Shown one piece after another: positions 6,128-47,980 of a DNA stretch of 64,000 nucleotides (positions within the stretch are counted from its first letter, which is position 1; each line of letters starts with the position of its first letter). The notes under the pieces were generated by a model. It ran no database searches. It was not told the DNA's origin and saw nothing but the letters and a program-made list of their open reading frames with translations. The position numbers were made by a program, and so were the translations under genes. This stretch comes from Lobosporangium transversale (Eukaryota; Mortierellomycota; Mortierellomycetes; Mortierellales; Mortierellaceae): contig NW_019028988.1 in the NCBI RefSeq assembly GCF_002105155.1, positions 124,001 to 188,000 of the forward strand. Direction: 5' to 3'.

Positions 6128-6704
6128 CAATTTTGCTGAGGCTGTCAATTTTGCGCCACCTGACTGGTGTCACTTTGGAGTTGACTGTGCACTGCGATAT
6201 AAGGAACATCGGAAACACCCTGTCTTTTCACATGATGAATTAATCATTACCACAGCGCTTAAGGACAGAAGCTCCGAGACTGCAAAATGGCTTCAGCACG
6301 AAATGAAAGATTTGTTGGAGCGAGAGATGGCGCAGCGAAAGAAAGCTTTGGATTCGTACCCATTTATGGCTGTAATTGTGGAAGAAATGGATCGTCCTGA
6401 GGAAGAGGTCCAATGTTTGTATTGCAATTCCTATATATACCTTTCACAAGTTGCATGCAGCTGTGGACCCAAAGTTGTTTGTAGCGATCATATTTCTGAA
6501 GTAAGGATGTGAAAGTGAAGGGAGTAAGAAACTTGTACCTATTATTGGATTTCTTTAATAGCTTTAGTAACATTCTTCTCTTTTACTGTGACGACTTAGT
6601 TCTGCCAATGCGATCCATCGAAACGTTTTCTCCGACTTCGGTACTCTGACAAACAGCTCGAGGATATTGTCCAAAAGGTGGTTGATACCGCAGCCTCTGC
6701 ATAA
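2908..6704 (+). CDS. KDM5/JARID1-like histone H3K4 demethylase
   Basis: Seven exons splice in phase: 2908-3273, 3991-4191, 4365-4704, 4893-5394, 5508-5964, 6126-6500, 6600-6704, giving about 781 residues. Domain order: JmjN (about 100-145, '[15 protein letters not shown]'), ARID (about 130-230), one PHD finger (about 345-392, Cys4-His-Cys3 spacing), JmjC (about 500-625) and a C5HC2 zinc finger (about 719-765). The JmjC iron ligands are present: H528 and E530 in 'WHNED', and H616 in 'YHAGFN'. This architecture is KDM5 (removes H3K4me2/3, Fe(II)/2-oxoglutarate dependent, nuclear). The protein stops soon after the C5HC2 finger and lacks the PLU-1 region and later PHD fingers of long KDM5s. Intron 1 is unusually long (717 bp), and the 3' splice site of intron 5 directly follows 28 A residues. 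The start is the first of two adjacent ATGs after a pyrimidine-rich leader. Confidence 0.9.
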
Positions 6705-7764
6705 AAAGTTTTTCTTTTTCTTTTTCTTTTTTTATTCTCTGATCTATACTTCGCAAGGACATCTGCAATTGAGGAACGGGTATCATCACAGTTCCTTCAT
6801 GTGTAAAAAAAAGAAAAAAAGAAAAAAAATCTTTTTTTTTTCTCTTCCCTTCCTTCTTTTCTGTGTTTTGCTGGCGAGATCAGTATAGTTGGGTTGGATA
6901 CAAAAAATATATGTCTACCATTCGATTGTTTACCATCTTTTTTTATTTTTGGCCAAAGAAGAACCCAGACTATATATTCTTCGAACTCTTACTGTTGTAC
7001 ATTGCTTGTAACATGTTTATTTTACGTTTTTCTTTTTTTCTTTTCTCTTCTTTATTTTTATTTCCTCTGCAAAAAAATAATAAAAATGGCAAGGAACAAA
7101 TAACACGCTTCCAGTGCAAAAATGAACCAAGATCGCCTATCAGTTAACTTTTTTCTTTCGTTTCATAGGAATGTATGTAGACATTAGTGATACCTGGCAC
7201 AAATAAAGCCTTCGTCGCCATTTACGTCATTATTGAGTAGGGTTCTTCCAGCCTGGCTCTTTAATGAAATAACGTTTTTTTTATTTTATTTTTTATTTTT
7301 TATTCCAAGCTAGTTATTGACTCAATTTCGGATTATTTTGATTCTGACCCCTCGGGAAAGATTCGTTAAGAAAGGGTCGCTCACATTTGTATGGAGATCT
7401 TGATATTGGCATTGGATATCGCTCAGCAATGGTCTAACTTCATGATCGAAGGATCTAATCCTTGTCCTTGTAGGAAATATGGTCCGTGGCTATTATACTT
7501 GCGTTGTTGATTGGTACACTGACTGAAGTATAGAATTTAAAACCCCACTAGTTTTAAATCTCAGGTGAAGAAGCTAGTTTTTACGAAACCAATTTCTTTA
7601 CTCAAAAAAAAAAAAAAAAAAAAAAAATCAATAAGGAATCAAGCTGAAAGAATCATAATGTTTATGCCAATGTCTACTTGAAGTAAAAAGATAGTTTTTG
7701 TACAAATGAGTCGCGCACATTTATTTATGATTTCTTTTGTTTTTTCTATTAGGTGTGATACTCC
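6705..7764. other. Gene-free spacer
   Basis: AT-rich 3' flank of the KDM5-like gene with several poly(T) and poly(A) runs, including about 24 A near 7604. I see no coding frame or RNA gene. Confidence 0.5.
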
Positions 7765-39797: not shown

Positions 39798-39973
39798 TTT
39801 TTTTTTTTTTTTTTCCTGTTAACAAGAACCCACAGAGGTGAGGAATTTTATTTCATAATCTCGCTCTAAAGTAATGATATCGCCCTCAACTATGAAACAA
39901 GCGAAACTCTCAAAGTTCGCACGGGATGGCTGTGAAGAGCCAATTCGTATCCATGTTTTTCTCTACCAATGTA
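39798..39973 (-). repeat. SINE-like repeat, copy 2, 3' fragment (split by the Tigger insertion)
   Basis: On the minus strand this is the 3' end of the repeat with an A-tail (39814-39798). It aligns with 35122-35286 of copy 1 and stops at the TA (39972-39973) used as target by the transposon. Confidence 0.85.
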
Positions 39974-40821
39974 CAGTGGAATCTCGATAATTGTACATTT
40001 TTGTACAAATTTCGAATTTGATATATTTCTAGGCCATTGGTTGGCTAAGAGCCTCTCAATTCAAAAATACTATTGTAAGCTGACCTCTCTATGTCAAACA
40101 TGGCAGGAGGGCAGGTAAGTGACTGGCAAGTGAGGGAGATTGTAGCTAAAGGAAGGGATTGCAACTGAGGGAAGGTGATGGCGTAAGCTTGAAAAGATCT
40201 TGTGGTATTTTTTTTTTTTTCTTTTGTCAATCATCAAACACGACACAATCATAGCATCAGCCATCAAGCAAGTCCCTCTTCTCTAGTCCGTTCTATTCAC
40301 GATGTCGGCTACTCTCTCGAGCAACAGACACAGCTGCAGCTGCATTGGTCCCTCTCTACCCTTAGGGCAGGGAGAGTTTAACAGCCATCTTCGCGGTGGC
40401 AAAATCCCACCATCTTCGCCATGGTGATGATTGTTAGTGACCAGCGCTGTCTCTGCAGTTGGTTTTCTGTCTGCTTCGAGGCCCTCCGCAAGCAAGAAGC
40501 AATTCTACAGGCTGGACGTCCAAACTCTTTCTCAAGCAGCAGACACAGTTGCAGCTGCATTGGTCCCTCTCTACCCTTAGGGCAGGGAGAGTTTAACAGC
40601 CATCTTCGCGGTGGCAAAATCCCACCATCTTCGCCATGGTGATGATTGTTAGTGACCAGCGCTGTCTCTGCAGTTGGTTTTCTGTCTGCTTCGAGATGGA
40701 GCAAGTCTTGATCCTTTTCACTGTCGCCTCTGTCATTCTCGCTGTCAATTGCCATAATAGTAACCACCTCAACATTTTTTCAGTCTACAGCTGATATAAC
40801 ATTTTGCCAGTACTCGATTCT

Positions 40822-40866
<45 letters not shown>

Positions 40867-41133
40867 ATATTAATAATCATATTATTACTATTATCAATAT
40901 TATAACATACAAGACAAAAGAAGGAGGATCCGGAGCATCCGCAGCCGCACATGGACAAGAATGTTTGGCCTTTGTTGTTCACTCACCACTCACTCCCTCA
41001 TACTTATTCGATATATAACATTTAATAAATCTACAGCTCGTCACTTTATTACTTTTTCCGGGGGGCTGGGAATGTGAAAAACCAAGTCTAAAAGTACTCC
41101 TCATGGATGGCACTTTGTGTGCATTGCATTACA
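39974..41133 (+). repeat. Left terminal inverted repeat of the Tigger element (1,160 bp)
   Basis: Pairs with 46321-47474. Divergence begins after 'gcattgcattaca' at 41133. It contains an internal direct duplication of about 165 bp (spacing 215 bp) and a T-run of about 36 at 40827-40862 that accounts for the length difference between arms. Frames inside it are mirrored in the right arm and are not genes. Confidence 0.92.
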
Positions 41134-41149
41134 GTACAGCGCAAAATTC

Positions 41150-44015
41150 TCAGCGTTGGGACGAGGGTATATCTGGAAATTTAGCCATAATCTTCGCATA
41201 CGTTTCTTGTTGCTCTTGATGTTTAGCTTTTGCCTCTGCTTGGTCGGCCAAAAACTGCTTCTTATCATACTTGGTACTAGGATCTTCATAATCTGGGATC
41301 TCCGTTAGAAACAATTTGTCAGCATGCAACTGGATGATCTTTCGAGCATCGCCTTTTGCTATTGCTGCAGCAAGCATCATAACATCATGCCGTGCACCAG
41401 GAGACATATTCTGGACCCTCTCATCATAGTCTACTTGCTCTTCAGATCCATCAGTATCCATAGAAGAATCGTCATCTGAGGGTTGGATATGGACACGACT
41501 GACATAGGAGCCTCTCCTACTAGCTTTTGATATCGCGACATATTCGCCCAATTCCTCTGCATCACTGACATATACTTCGTGATCCTCGTCATCGTCATCA
41601 TCATGCTCCTGCCAATCTACATCCATAAGTTCGGCGGCGCTTGGTCTTGGGGCGAGGTACGACAGAAGTTTCTCAGTAACTAAGCCTTCTTCTTCCAGCA
41701 ATTCATTGATGGCATGGTATATGATGGGTGTCCCGTCAAGGATCCTCGCAAATGGTGCAACCGTATTCCTTAGTCTCGCTTCACGATCAGTGCGATTAAG
41801 GTCCCCGTAAGCTGCGCACACAAAAGGATCCTTAGAGCTTGGACTTGGTAGAGGGATGTTAGAACTTGGCACAGAAAGGTTAGGACTTGGTAGAAGAGGG
41901 TAATTGCGCCCCATGTCCGTTGTCGTGTTGCCAGTGTCGTTGGTTGCGGCTTCCTGTGCTTCATTATCGCACACTAGGGCCCAAAGCACATCTGGATCGT
42001 GCGCGACATTGCCTGAGAGCTCATTCTTTTGACGCCTACCAAAAATTGGGACATGACCAAAGCAGTTCCTGATACTCATACTTTTGACCTCGTCCCATGA
42101 TCCAGCAATGATTCTCCATGCATCATAGTTAGAGACGGCATTCACCCGCCTACCATCTACATTGAAAGGGTCCAAACGCATGCTCAGAGTCTGATTCCTT
42201 ACGTTGCTCTGATAGTATCGCTTAAAAACAGATATGATTCCTGCATCAAGCGGCTGCGTGACAGAAGTCGAGTTTTTTGGTAAAAAGATAACTCCGATGT
42301 TGGGGAAGCGCCGCCTGTCCTCATCCAGGAGCTTATGGCAGCCTGCATTATCAACAAGTAGCGCAACTTTTCGCTCATTATTTTGGGCAGCAATTGATTC
42401 TTGAAACCTCTCTAGCCAACTTAAAAACACGATTCTTGTCATGTAGTCAGGGCGATGGCGAGGCTTCTTTTGGCTTCTCGTATGAGTACTGCTCAGACTT
42501 TCGTCATGATCCTCAAAATCGCTGCCATGGCCCTGAGCAGCCTCGTTCCATGGATGAATCTCTATAAGTTCCTGAAGAATGCTATCATTATGGAAGCCTC
42601 GTGGAAGATATTTGCCTAGAAATACTCTGGTTATTACATACACTGTTTGAAATGCTTACACGCTTGAAAAATGAAAGGGGAAAAATATGAAAAATACTCT
42701 CAAACACTTACTGAGGACAAACGGCTTTCTTTTATCTGTCCCGGTAGCATTGGTACAAAGGAGTATAGAAACCCTTGTAGACGGAATCTTTATCCCTGCC
42801 AGCTTTTCAAAGTCCAAAGTCCATGAAGATAATGTCTGGAGAAACAAGCCAGTCTCATCGGCATTATAGATATCTTCAATGCGATACGCCTCCAAAGCAA
42901 TCTTTATCTTTTCAACCTCCTCCGCAATAGCTTCCAGGTCAACTCCGCCCGCTTCTCCCATCATCTTATGGTATGTAATACCCCAATGGGCCTTGAATGA
43001 GTCGAACCACCCTGATGAAAATGAGGGCTTTGCAAATTCCAAAGGACCCAACTTTGTCACAAGCATATCATAAACATGGCCCGCCATTATCCTCATCAAC
43101 GGTTGATTGACAGGCAGTCGGCGCTCGGACAAGAACTACTTCCACTGGATAAAAGGGCTGGCGCACAACTTTGAACTTATTGCCCCAATTGGCCCGCGGT
43201 TCGAGCTTGACTTTCTTTTCCCAATCGAGTAAGCGATTAATGGTATGTCGGCGAAGGTGATGCTCCTCTTCAAACGGTCCTTGCTTTGGGAAGGAATGCT
43301 TTCCGCCAAACAGCTGATGGTTGGCTACATGACTCTTCCACATTTGAAGGATATATTCCTTCACGTCAAAGCTATGTATTTCGTACTTTGAAGTGGATGG
43401 TTTGGGCATTAAAACCACAGGCTTATTGATGCGTCCCGCAGGCCCATGTTTAGAGCCGACAGATTGAAACCGTTGGGGGCTTTGTATAGGCTGTTGTCGG
43501 AACTGTTGTGGGGGCTGTGCCGCGGACAGCAGCGGATACTGTGGTGGTGGTGGTAGAAGGGGTGTTTGAAGCCGCTGTGTAAGTTGGGGCGCAGGAGATA
43601 GTTGATTCAGTGGTGTTGGGCGCTGCTGTTGAAGTTGTGGTGCGGGCGGCTGTAGATTGAGCGGTGGAGGGAGTTGATATGGAGTTTGCGGTGGAGGGAG
43701 GAGTGGATACTGTGCTAGTGGAAGCGGTGCAGGAAACTGTTCTGAAGATTGTGATGAAGGCAGCACGGAACTAAGCCATGGGGGATGTTGCTCTGACGAG
43801 TTTTGTTTTGATGAGCCTTGCATTGAGGAGTCTTTCTTTTGTGCATCAAGAATCTGCTGCCTATACTTCCATAAGTCCAAAGGAGCCTCTTGAGAACTCG
43901 TGGAAAGCTGTTGAGACTTTCTATGACTAGGCGAAGCTAGCAGATCGCTATGCATATTCGTCTCGTTGTAGTTCACAAATATCAAGCGCTGTTGAATGGG
44001 TGTTTGAGACTCCAT
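41150..44015 (-). CDS. Tigger/pogo-type DDE transposase
   Basis: Three exons splice in phase: 44015-43212, 43135-42712 and 42615-41150, about 897 residues. The N-terminal third is Pro/Gln/Ser-rich; a helix-turn-helix-like segment follows ('HHLRRHTINRLLDWEKK'). Next comes a CENP-B-type HTH ('FLSERRLPVNQPLMRIMAG' to 'SGWFDSFKAHWGI'). The DDE_1 core has all three acidic residues: 'YNADETGLF', 'ALLVDNAGCHK' and 'STSVTQPLDAGIISVFKRYY'. The C-terminus is acidic. It should bind the element ends, excise the element and insert it at TA. The first intron (76 bp) uses a weak GTCAAG donor; if it is wrong, exons 1 and 2 are separated by a frameshift. The start at 44015 is the ATG after a leader; the frame also opens at 44120. 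The stop lies 16 bp inside the left TIR boundary. Confidence 0.88.
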
Positions 44016-44644
44016 TGTAAATAAATGCAAATGGTAAGAAGTAGGGAGATTATGAGTGGATGAGTGAAGCAGGAATAGTTTTGTTGTAGATTGAGGATTT
44101 TTATGCCAGTATTTATTCAAGGACTGTTGCCATGTTTAAGCGCTAAATGCTGAGTTGACTCTCTGCAAACTTTGATCAAGGTTAATTAGAGATGATTGTT
44201 ATGATTATTATTGGCTCATGAGTTCCAAGGCCGATATTTTCGAGTCTTGAAGCCAAAGAGATTGTTGCCAGACAGAACTTTTTATTAAAGTCTCGCCTGA
44301 CCGTCACACCATGTTCTAACCTAATGAATAAAAATGAAAGTGCCCCTGAGGTGCTTGCCTCGATACGCAACACACATCGCTTTCAGAGGCCAGGTGGCTC
44401 CATGGGGCTACTTAGAGTCACAATCATCCACAATCATCAATGATATTATTATAAATCTATCTGCGGATGGAGAGCGTGACAAAAATCGGAATTTCACGAA
44501 CCTTTTTCAGCAAGTGGTGTTTGAAAGCTGTATCATTGGGCTTTATTGTGCATCTTTAGACCGGTGTCAATATTGCCAAAAGTTCCGACTTCTGAAAGGA
44601 ATGTAAAAAAACAACCCGGGCAACCATTTGCCAGTGCTTCAGCC
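44016..44644. other. Spacer between the two transposon genes
   Basis: Holds the presumed promoter of the transposase (minus strand) and the 3' flank of the nuclease-like gene. No coding signal of its own. Confidence 0.5.
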
Positions 44645-46197
44645 TTATTCGCGACGACGTATGAAATACGAAGGGCGAGTATATTTCAGATCTTGGGGTT
44701 CTTGGGGTGAAGGCCCAGGAGGCGAAGCCTGACGCCCACGAACCGCCTCTGCCACGCGCTGTACAAGCGGCTACGAGTAACAAGAAAACATTGAGCTGAT
44801 TAATAATAGATCTAATTTATAATGCAATGTGGATCAAAGCTCGAACATGACAAGGGTACCTGCACGTCTTCCAGAATCCCAAGCCCACCACACATCCGTG
44901 AGAAAGTTGATCTATCGGTGGGCAAATGCATCCGACCAACTTCCTTCGGGATGTATAGTGCCTCGGACCTCAACTCCATCATGTAAAATCTCATTGCTGT
45001 ACCTAAAACGCATTGGCTTTATAGTGTTAAAAAACATATATATGTGCATACGTAAAATACAGATATTTGAAACCTACTTTGGACAAGCACACCAACAACC
45101 ACTGGGTTATTGATGTTACCCCAGACCATCTTGTTTAAAGACAGCTTCATCATGGAGAGCAGCTTGAGATAATCAAACGATAGGAGTTTCCCAGCCTTGA
45201 TCCCAGGTTTTTTCACTTCCACGAGGAGAACTGGAAAGTCATCTACCCGTGCGATGATGTCGGGTCGGAATTCTTCCAGACTGGCATCCAGGGATGGCAT
45301 CTCCTCGAGGCGAGAATCTCTAGCAGATGTTAAGACATAAATCGAGCGTTAAACGATTTTAGGGGAAACTTTGCCGGTTGGCAGATACTTATAAATGAAT
45401 TCGTGATTACATGGCAATTGTTGCTCCCAATCCATGCAGGAGCGTCTCAATTACAGGAGTAACGAAGAAATGCTGGTATGTCGCTTCATTGAGCGATTGG
45501 CCTTTCTTGGTCCCCCATATTCGATCGGTACAGGTCATATTCTGGATTACCTTGAACGTGAGCGAATTTCTGACAGCATTTGGTGCCTTGGAAAGCTTAT
45601 CCTGGAAATGCTGATAATCCTGGGTACCCGCAGTTCGGGTTCATCCTTTAAGGAAACTGCAATGTTCCTCGGGTATCCTGGTTACTTTCCTGGTCCCAAA
45701 TATCTCTCCAAGAACCTGGTCACTAACCAGCGATTTAAGAATTGATTTCGAAAAGATAAAGTTGAGAGTTCTAGAGATATTACGGCAAGGGAGTTTTTAA
45801 TATAAGTATCAACTCCGCATTCCACGCTCTACGAACACAGTTGCGAACACAGTTGCGAACACAGTGACATACAATAACTCATCAGCTTTTTTCAAAGTCG
45901 CTTCTTTCTTCACAAATATTTCCCGCGCCTCCATTGCCTTCAACGAAACATCTACGTTATTAATAATCAAGTGTTCATGGGAAAGGCGGCAAGATGTTGT
46001 TCCTCGGCCGACGAGATTCGTAACAATAGAGAGTCCCTATTAGTTGCATGTTAGTTGCATATTAGTTGGCAGTTCAATGTTTTTGGAATGCTATTTCAGC
46101 ACTTGGCAATCTAATTGAAAGGGAGAGAACACACTTTTGAAGAGTTGCTCTTTTTCTTATTGGCAGTAATTTTATTGGCAGTAGTGAATTTAGGCAT
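44645..46197 (-). CDS. PD-(D/E)XK nuclease-like protein carried by the Tigger element
   Basis: Seven exons join in phase: 46197-46135, 46036-45873, 45770-45686, 45619-45411, 45319-45078, 45002-44860, 44770-44645, giving 343 residues. The N-terminus is Lys/Ser-rich, then comes a helical part ('VDVSLKAMEAREIFVKKEA'). The conserved block 'KVIQNMTCTDRIWGTKKGQ' and 'EATYQHFFVTPVIETLL' precedes the PD-(D/E)XK core: D194 in 'FRPDIIARVDD' and E208-x-K210 in 'LLVEVKKPG'. The C-terminus is Pro/Arg-rich. The core is that of restriction-endonuclease-like enzymes; activity and target are unknown. Intron 3 (66 bp, 45620-45685) is a multiple of three and contains the only in-frame TGA, so retaining it would truncate the protein. 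It lies between the transposase and the right TIR and is transcribed in the same direction. Autonomous Tigger elements normally encode only a transposase, so this gene is a notable addition. Confidence 0.8.
45837..45866. repeat. Tandem 13-bp unit, about 2.5 copies
   Basis: A GAACACAGTTGC-type unit is repeated head to tail within intron 2 of the transposon-borne nuclease-like gene. Confidence 0.7.
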
Positions 46198-46249
46198 GTT
46201 GAAGAAAATGTTGATTGAGAGTGTTGGATAATTGGATAATGGGTGATTC

Positions 46250-46270
46250 AGCTCTTTTTATAAATAGTGC
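46250..46270 (-). promoter_or_regulatory. TATA-like box of the transposon-borne nuclease gene
   Basis: On the minus strand 'CTATTTATAAAAAGAGC' lies about 60 bp upstream of the ATG at 46197 and just inside the right TIR boundary. Spacing fits a core promoter; function is inferred. Confidence 0.45.
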
Positions 46271-46320
46271 AGCGTTTATCTTTTGGAACGGTAAAGCACG
46301 GAGCTCTCGGGACAGCATAA

Positions 46321-46587
46321 TGTAATGCAATGCACACAAAGTGCCATCCATGAGGAGTACTTTTAGACTTGGTTTTTCACATTCCCAGCCCCCCGGAAAA
46401 AGTAATAAAGTGACGAGCTGTAGATTTATTAAATGTTATATATCGAATAAGTATGAGGGAGTGAGTGGTGAGTGAACAACAAAGGCCAAACATTCTTGTC
46501 CATGTGCGGCTGCGGATGCTCCGGATCCTCCTTCTTTTGTCTTGTATGTTATAATATTGATAATAGTAATAATATGATTATTAATAT

Positions 46588-46626
<39 letters not shown>

Positions 46627-47474
46627 AGAATCGAGTACTGGCAAAATGTTATATCAGCTGTAGACTGAAAAAATGTTGAGGTGGTTACTATTATGGCAAT
46701 TGACAGCGAGAATGACAGAGGCGACAGTGAAAAGGATCAAGACTTGCTCCATCTCGAAGCAGACAGAAAACCAACTGCAGAGACAGCGCTGGTCACTAAC
46801 AATCATCACCATGGCGAAGATGGTGGGATTTTGCCACCGCGAAGATGGCTGTTAAACTCTCCCTGCCCTAAGGGTAGAGAGGGACCAATGCAGCTGCAAC
46901 TGTGTCTGCTGCTTGAGAAAGAGTTTGGACGTCCAGCCTGTAGAATTGCTTCTTGCTTGCGGAGGGCCTCGAAGCAGACAGAAAACCAACTGCAGAGACA
47001 GCGCTGGTCACTAACAATCATCACCATGGCGAAGATGGTGGGATTTTGCCACCGCGAAGATGGCTGTTAAACTCTCCCTGCCCTAAGGGTAGAGAGGGAC
47101 CAATGCAGCTGCAGCTGTGTCTGTTGCTCGAGAGAGTAGCCGACATCGTGAATAGAACGGACTAGAGAAGAGGGACTTGCTTGATGGCTGATGCTATGAT
47201 TGTGTCGTGTTTGATGATTGACAAAAGAAAAAAAAAAAAATACCACAAGATCTTTTCAAGCTTACGCCATCACCTTCCCTCAGTTGCAATCCCTTCCTTT
47301 AGCTACAATCTCCCTCACTTGCCAGTCACTTACCTGCCCTCCTGCCATGTTTGACATAGAGAGGTCAGCTTACAATAGTATTTTTGAATTGAGAGGCTCT
47401 TAGCCAACCAATGGCCTAGAAATATATCAAATTCGAAATTTGTACAAAAATGTACAATTATCGAGATTCCACTG
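46321..47474 (-). repeat. Right terminal inverted repeat of the Tigger element (1,154 bp)
   Basis: Inverse of 39974-41133, including the same internal 165-bp direct duplication (starts at about 46754 and 46969). Its A-run (about 33, 46591-46623) is a few bases shorter than the left arm's T-run. Confidence 0.92.
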
Positions 47475-47980
47475 TACACCGTGATCGGTACTCGAAGTCC
47501 ATCCTTCCGATGTGGCCTGTTGCGCCCGTGAAAAGCCGCGGAGGCTGGCGTGCCGACTCTAGCTAAGGACGACTTTTAATTTTTTTCTATTCGATCAAAT
47601 CCACTGGCATGTGGACCCAAATCTTGCGGGATTGGTCTGAAATTTCTACTTTGGACTCCGTCAAACTTTGTGATCATCGCTGTCCTAGTCAAGTGGGTGG
47701 ATGGGGGGGATGTGCTGCCAGATGTACCGCTGGTTCGGCTGGGGGGTGGAATATAAACCTAAGACATGTGGCCAGCCAGGCGACTTAGGGTAGTGCACCC
47801 ACGATCTTAGCCTTAGCGGAGAACACTAGGCTGTCTCGGAGAGAAAGTATAAAAACTCAAGCAAATCCCTGACCTGGCACATGTTTGCTTCACTTTATGT
47901 GCCTTAACCAGGACTCGAACCCGGCCCCTGGGCTAGACAGGGGGGTGCCCTGACGAGTATACTACTCAGCCATTGGGCTT
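47475..47980 (-). repeat. SINE-like repeat, copy 2, 5' part with tRNA-derived head
   Basis: Continues copy 2 beyond the Tigger insertion and aligns with 35285-35690. At 47911-47978 (minus strand) it has a tRNA-like head: an A-box-like TGGCTGAGTAGT (47972-47961) and a B box GGTTCGAGTCC ending at 47911. The acceptor stem pairs poorly, so this is a Pol III promoter module rather than a working tRNA. Head, body and A-tail total about 680 bp when the insertion is removed, long for a SINE. Confidence 0.75.

Follow-up and report, generated by a model that had tools for sequence, protein, structure and literature searches.

A predicted PD-(D/E)XK-type nuclease family shared by pogo/Tigger-type and Sailor transposons in the fungus Lobosporangium transversale

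Tigger elements are described as transposons of 1.0-4.5 kb with terminal inverted repeats (TIRs) of 8-33 bp and one open reading frame (ORF) (PMC9219625; this and the other published accounts are cited for the passages that concern the systems compared here). For Lobosporangium transversale, a Sailor/DD82E element of 6,979 bp with TIRs of 1,362 bp, a TATA duplication and a transposase of the DD78E-DD111E group has been published (PMC8533490). Besides, several elements with additional genes are on record: ISL2EU of the PHIS group has a transposase and a second ORF with a YqaJ exonuclease domain (PMC4482050), KolobokP combines its transposase with a His-Me finger homing endonuclease, which was proposed to raise the copy number by induced recombination (PMC9587614), the Tec elements of ciliates, which belong to the Tc1/mariner group, have ~700-bp TIRs and extra ORFs (PMC7325037), and fungal DNA transposons carrying TET/JBP genes provide an example of one accessory gene family across several unrelated superfamilies (PMC12730594). 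Here, we analysed a stretch of 64,000 nucleotides from L. transversale (contig NW_019028988.1, positions 124,001 to 188,000; hereafter the window), which contains a large transposon of the pogo/Tigger type with a transposase gene and a second, nuclease-like gene.

As judged from homology, one family of predicted nucleases is associated with at least two superfamilies of transposases, namely pogo/Tigger and Sailor. We assign a probability of about 0.6 to the reading that it is a selected accessory nuclease of the transposon. It looks more like a common accessory component than like a chance passenger, since two kinds of transposon carry the same nuclease family and long TIRs are found in all three nuclease-bearing families measured: 1,163 nt in the family of the window element (family A), 1,352 nt in a Sailor family (family B) and at least 656 nt at locus C72 (loci are named by contig label, where necessary with the position). 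The stretches read at C39, C24, C63, C40 and C106:374k are too short to judge TIRs. The one nuclease-free Sailor family measured (C36) spans 2.3 kb, has an inverted repeat of 35 bp and contains an open frame of 684 aa.

Family B came up in a protein search, in which six near-identical loci were relatives at 45% over the putative active-site exon. In the C58 copy, both genes lie between TIR arms that are 99.9% identical, and the transposase is of the DD88E type: its last D is separated from the E by 88 residues, which fits the DD78E-DD111E spacing of Sailor. A Sailor transposase is located ~1.5 kb from the nuclease in all six copies; the TATA duplication was found on both sides in C58, C37 and C44 and on the one side that could be located in C13, C53 and C106. 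The gene order, transposase and then nuclease, is the reverse of that in family A, and the nuclease of C44 is open in the exons examined. Further Sailor lineages with the nuclease are represented by C95, C106:374k, C72 and C39, and at C72 both genes lie between the arms. Altogether, 20 of 33 nuclease loci have a Sailor or Tigger transposase locus at a distance of at most 5 kb, compared with 2.2% of the genome; this count includes near-identical copies (eight loci of family A and six of family B, plus six others). When a stand-alone gene was subsequently used as the query, seven more distant loci were added, none of them near the listed Sailor or Tigger loci, which brings the proportion, with the same near-identical copies, to 20 of 40. 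Seen from the transposases, the nuclease accompanies 11 of the 43 loci of Sailor type and 8 of the 47 of Tigger type. At C24, C40 (two loci) and C82:150k there is no Sailor or Tigger transposase neighbour, though these nucleases are closely related to transposon-borne ones. The two at C40 (772-777k and 781k) form an inverted pair separated by ~8 kb, and the one member that was read is apparently complete. A genome scan for the DDE_3 family (at least 155 matches) led nowhere.

Compared with the known systems, family A resembles pogo/Tigger elements in its DDE_1 transposase, DDxD triad, TA duplication and a putative Tc5-type helix-turn-helix, and departs from their usual short TIRs and single gene in its size of 7.5 kb, its TIRs of 1.16 kb and its two genes. 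Family B, with 6,971 bp, long TIRs, TATA and DD88E, is close to the published L. transversale Sailor. In the passages cited, the published account credits the size of this element to the TIRs and names no second gene (PMC8533490), whereas family B has the nuclease between them; the published element can hence be re-read as a two-gene element. With ISL2EU, the elements share the second nuclease-domain ORF in a eukaryotic DDE transposon, but ISL2EU belongs to another transposase superfamily, that of family A being of the DDE_1 type; the nuclease proteins scanned here had no match to YqaJ at E values up to 1. KolobokP also pairs a transposase with a small nuclease, which is however a His-Me finger protein, and its terminal repeats, as described, are long and direct, not inverted. 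Tec elements have in common the membership in the Tc1/mariner group, long TIRs and extra ORFs, but the extra ORF named in the passages cited is a site-specific recombinase. The accessory gene of the TET/JBP-carrying transposons is a dioxygenase, and the cited part of that work names no Mariner-type element (PMC12730594). Because ISL2EU and KolobokP already pair a transposase with a nuclease, and the TET/JBP genes set a precedent for a shared accessory gene, the window element does not represent a new kind of eukaryotic cut-and-paste element, and a preliminary description of the locus was overstated in this respect. The Tigger transposase-plus-nuclease pairing put forward there recurs in all six full-length copies but is too narrow, since homologues inside Sailor elements demonstrate that the nuclease is not tied to Tigger. 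Among the listings of open-licence papers searched, none reports a PD-(D/E)XK partner for an element of the Tc1/mariner, pogo or Sailor type. Within the reach of these searches, the novelty lies in a single nuclease family that occurs, together with long TIRs, in two superfamilies of the Tc1/mariner group. If the nuclease is a shared helper, one accessory enzyme can be recruited by superfamilies with different ends and target duplications, and the cause of kilobase TIRs in some Tc1/mariner-group elements becomes testable. Readable copies for testing are available in C85 (both family-A genes) and C44 (family-B nuclease).

The accessory protein is likely a PD-(D/E)XK-type nuclease, an assignment which rests on motif conservation and weak profile matches, the conservation being the stronger argument. 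In an alignment of eight nuclease sequences, which amount to about six divergent ones (P0001 is the family A protein, and C51 and C106 are 93% alike) and do not comprise C34 and C95, the motifs N-E, E, P-D, E-x-K, D, K-L and M-K are common to all. This order of conserved residues is as expected of PD-(D/E)XK enzymes, and PD and E-x-K are also kept in C72, C39 and C63. The earlier view of a PD-(D/E)XK-like second protein is in line with these invariant residues; with regard to profiles, the D/E/K core gave matches below the cut-off only. In Pfam, HSDR_N was matched at E=0.022 with the window exon and 0.0019 with family B, and an AHJR-like profile at 0.082, all sub-threshold. A search of the whole genome with the HSDR_N profile yielded eight matches (E 0.05-0.14, all below cut-off), of which the best two are at C41 and the other six are the six family-B nuclease copies. 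The two C41 matches (C41:659209 and C41:672049, E=0.05) are an inverted pair of 343-codon frames. Four frames from stand-alone nuclease genes had no Pfam match, and none of 42 pattern matches to the nuclease in viral contigs is a relative. Database relatives were found solely in L. transversale (P0001, P0058) and Modicella (P0002). The basic tails RRRE and RKRKRSE can be read as possible nuclear signals. The accessory nuclease is probably nuclear.

The window element itself belongs to a family of large pogo/Tigger-type transposons with recent activity. It covers positions 39974-47474 (7,501 bp) with the ends CAGTGGAATCTCGATAATTGTACA; it shares CAGTGGAA ends with pogo/Tigger elements. Both genes are on the minus strand, and the TIR arms occupy 1-1163 and 6345-7501 in element coordinates (Table 1). 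The size, the TA duplication, the unusually long TIRs and the two same-strand genes given in the preliminary description were all reproduced. When the genome of L. transversale (42.7 Mb, 127 contigs) was searched at the DNA level, where match counts are lower bounds, we obtained at least 7 matches to a transposase piece, at least 8 to the nuclease gene and at least 65 to the TIR end. Six copies are full-length, namely the window copy (C2:163974), C2b (C2:654703), C46:258484, C85:151426, C70:20528 and C55:317250, spanning 7,050-7,501 bp; the five others are 99.1-99.8% identical to the window copy over the main aligned stretch. All six are flanked by TA on each side and contain both genes, so copies with the same TIRs do repeatedly carry the pair, and no full-length member without the nuclease gene was found. 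In addition, C34 is a decayed copy in which the nuclease, one arm and a portion of the transposase remain, and C59 is a deleted, more diverged one. The 65 TIR matches are distributed over the six full copies (12), C34 (1), C59 (2) and short elements (50), and by inspection of the match list the latter pair into at least 25 elements of ~256 bp. Of 15 of these that were examined, the flanks of 11 were resolved, with TA on both sides in each. The first 105 nt of the family-A TIR are matched at 82-93% by the ends of these non-autonomous elements (e.g. C117:894317, C104:81804).

Table 1. Features of the family-A element in the window (positions of the 64,000-nt stretch).
Feature	Position	Strand	Remarks
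Left TA target-site duplication	39972..39973	.	TA flanks all six full-length copies
Left terminal inverted repeat	39974..41136	+	1,163 nt; two 169-nt direct-repeat units, 215 nt apart
Pogo/Tigger-type transposase gene	41150..44015	-	Exon 44015-42712, intron 42711-42616, exon 42615-41150; 929 aa in C85; DD34D
Nuclease-like gene	44645..46197	-	Exons 46197-46135, 46036-45873, 45770-45411, 45319-45078, 45002-44860, 44770-44645; 365 codons in C85
Putative active-site exon	45078..45319	-	RPD (D194), E208-V-K210 (343-aa numbering); HSDR_N E=0.022, below cut-off
Right terminal inverted repeat	46318..47474	-	1,157 nt; 99.4% identity to left arm
Right TA target-site duplication	47475..47476	.	TA on this side, too, in all six full-length copies

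The pogo/Tigger assignment of the transposase was upheld by the DDE_1 match (E=9e-24 with the window exon, 1.4e-26 with the C85 protein) and the catalytic triad (D393, D530 and D565 in C85, the last two 34 residues apart) together with the TA duplication in all six full copies. Concerning the integrity of the genes, seven family-A copies could be aligned over them. In exon 1 of the transposase, C85, C70 and C55 have 20 nt at ~43127 that are missing from the window copy, C2b, C46 and C34, and this loss causes a frameshift in the window copy. An intron proposed earlier inside this exon is judged unlikely. P0009 aligns with 166 bits to the continuous C85 transposase versus 140 bits to the window model, while 13 further relatives common to both lists deviate by at most 5 bits. 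The HTH_Tnp_Tc5 match improves from E=0.002 (profile 17-65, 18.5 bits) with the window exon to 0.0002 (profile 5-65, 21.7 bits) with C85, compared with a cut-off of 22.2 bits, and this region aligns with Tigger relatives. In the nuclease gene of the window, there is an in-frame TGA ending at 45641, unless a 66-nt intron at 45685-45620 is real, which would result in 343 aa. This third intron of the earlier model is likewise judged unlikely, as the same stretch reads as exon in C85, C70, C55 and C34. Base 45641 gives TGA in the window copy, C2b and C46 and TGT in these four. Consequently, the nuclease reads for 365 aa without a stop in C85 and C70 and for 118 aa before the stop in the window copy, C2b and C46; C55 has a one-base gap near the last intron (351 aa). 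Since C70 also has six one-base indels in its transposase exons, C85 alone among the six full-length copies is clean in both genes as assembled. The window copy is thus probably broken in both genes, with splicing around both lesions being possible. From the initial picture of two spliced, intact genes, the two genes and the 343-residue model with D194, E208 and K210 were recovered, and the intactness was not. Near-identical copies at three sites share both lesions, which suggests movement in trans.

Nuclease-family genes without either transposase nearby are present at C54:274k, C51:1285k, C51:1289k and C106:833k. Three of them (C54, C51:1289k, C106:833k) have open frames of 274-328 codons, with no match to either transposase within the 3-6 kb examined around them, and are constrained: the intervals for the ratio of nonsynonymous to synonymous substitutions (dN/dS) lie within 0.07-0.30, indicating purifying selection, with synonymous sites being saturated in two of the three pairs and one of those derived from 141 of the 300 resamples. 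A tree of 13 nuclease cores, with four of ten inner branches starred and several long branches, splits the stand-alone set from the rest (support 87/90) and groups family A with the Modicella protein (support 95/94). For the nuclease of the Sailor group, dN/dS at four loci is 0.48-0.81, and the upper bound is below 1 in four of six pairs, although at least two of these loci (C95, C24) look decayed. The transposase of family A gave 0.38 in comparison to C59. Between family B and C95, the synonymous divergence is 0.15 for the nuclease (C44 copy) and 0.38-0.50 for the transposase (C58 copy), and this inequality may reflect an exchange of modules between elements.

Several results weigh against a selected accessory nuclease and have to be considered together with its main competitor, a captured host nuclease gene that travels with the element but takes no part in transposition. 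The stand-alone relatives under purifying selection could be the source of such a passenger, and the transposon-borne copies are only weakly constrained: the nuclease values of the Sailor group contrast with a dN/dS of 0.21-0.22 for the transposase between C58 and C95, and in family A versus C59 the nuclease reaches 0.77 with a confidence interval of 0.31-2.8, which is not significant. Moreover, the gene is missing from most transposase loci (no nuclease match within 5 kb at 32 of 43 Sailor and 39 of 47 Tigger loci), and three of the six full-length family-A copies contain the TGA-bearing nuclease, yet they occupy three sites. On the side of the protein and the TIRs, the decayed copies C34 and C95 have lost E208 and the PD aspartate, respectively, a sequence search of the PDB with the nuclease matched no solved structure, and 9 kb read at C95 contain one arm-like stretch and no long inverted repeat. 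Nevertheless, the nuclease is found in two transposase superfamilies and several Sailor lineages, PD and E-x-K are kept at 24-39% identity to the Modicella protein, and all three measured families have long TIRs. One accidental capture is not enough to explain this combination, and we regard the passenger as unlikely, albeit a serious candidate.

As for the mechanism, the transposase would carry out the cut-and-paste reaction and would also mobilise, in trans, the 256-bp derivatives and those copies whose genes are broken, and the nuclease would be dispensable for this chemistry. Instead, the nuclease might cut DNA at or near the element ends, at empty sites or in folded long inverted repeats and thereby aid the spread of the element, and repair after such cutting would copy arms or whole elements. 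This cutting-and-repair step, which we put forward tentatively and with clearly less than even odds, would fit the observation that both arms of a copy change together: full-length family-A copies have one or two repeat units, with the same number in both arms in all six, and C46 is one 215-nt unit short in both. In the window, the 169-nt direct repeats are located at 40312-40480 and 40527-40695 and mirrored at 46753-46921 and 46968-47136. Concerted change of the arms would be expected from break repair between them, and ordinary gene conversion would yield the same. In its widest form, the proposal is an exchangeable nuclease module for two IS630-Tc1-mariner superfamilies, mechanistically linked to kilobase TIRs via cutting and templated repair between arms or copies, which would help to generate or homogenise the TIRs; we consider this possible, but rather doubtful.

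Two further roles were weighed against the selected accessory nuclease. The protein could be a conflict gene directed against rival elements or the host genome, as a selfish killer or for the exclusion of competitors, loosely like the REase-type domains of Crinklers. A review, in the part cited here, ties REase-domain proteins to transposable elements (PMC5289972), and the large, divergent nuclease family, with database relatives found from two Mortierellales genera only, as well as the basic tails would suit such a function. However, no Crinkler module is among the Pfam matches of the scanned nuclease proteins, the sole Crinkler match (E=0.48) is in the transposase, and nothing ties the nuclease to killing, with antidote genes and secretion signals not having been searched for. 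We consider this role improbable. Even less credit is due to a direct participation in transposition, in which the nuclease would cut one strand at the ends and the transposase the other. The precedent is Tn7, where TnsA, a PD-(D/E)XK-type nuclease, is paired with a DDE transposase. Against this, the same L. transversale genome holds several copies of Sailor relatives (42-45% identity) that lack the nuclease. Moreover, the two transposases combined with one nuclease family are unlike each other in the sequence of the ends and in the length of the duplication, and a TnsA-like role is very improbable.

Finally, the surroundings of the C46 copy deserve a comment. It is flanked by a 99-bp mirror repeat (C46:258385-258483 and from 265534), for which copying of an arm into the flank was considered and rejected, as the flank itself is repeated, with 19 matches in the genome. 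The C46 copy therefore sits at the centre of a palindromic repeat. The same 99-bp repeat is directly adjoined by a 256-bp derivative at C41:177589, and a preference of insertions for palindrome centres is possible.

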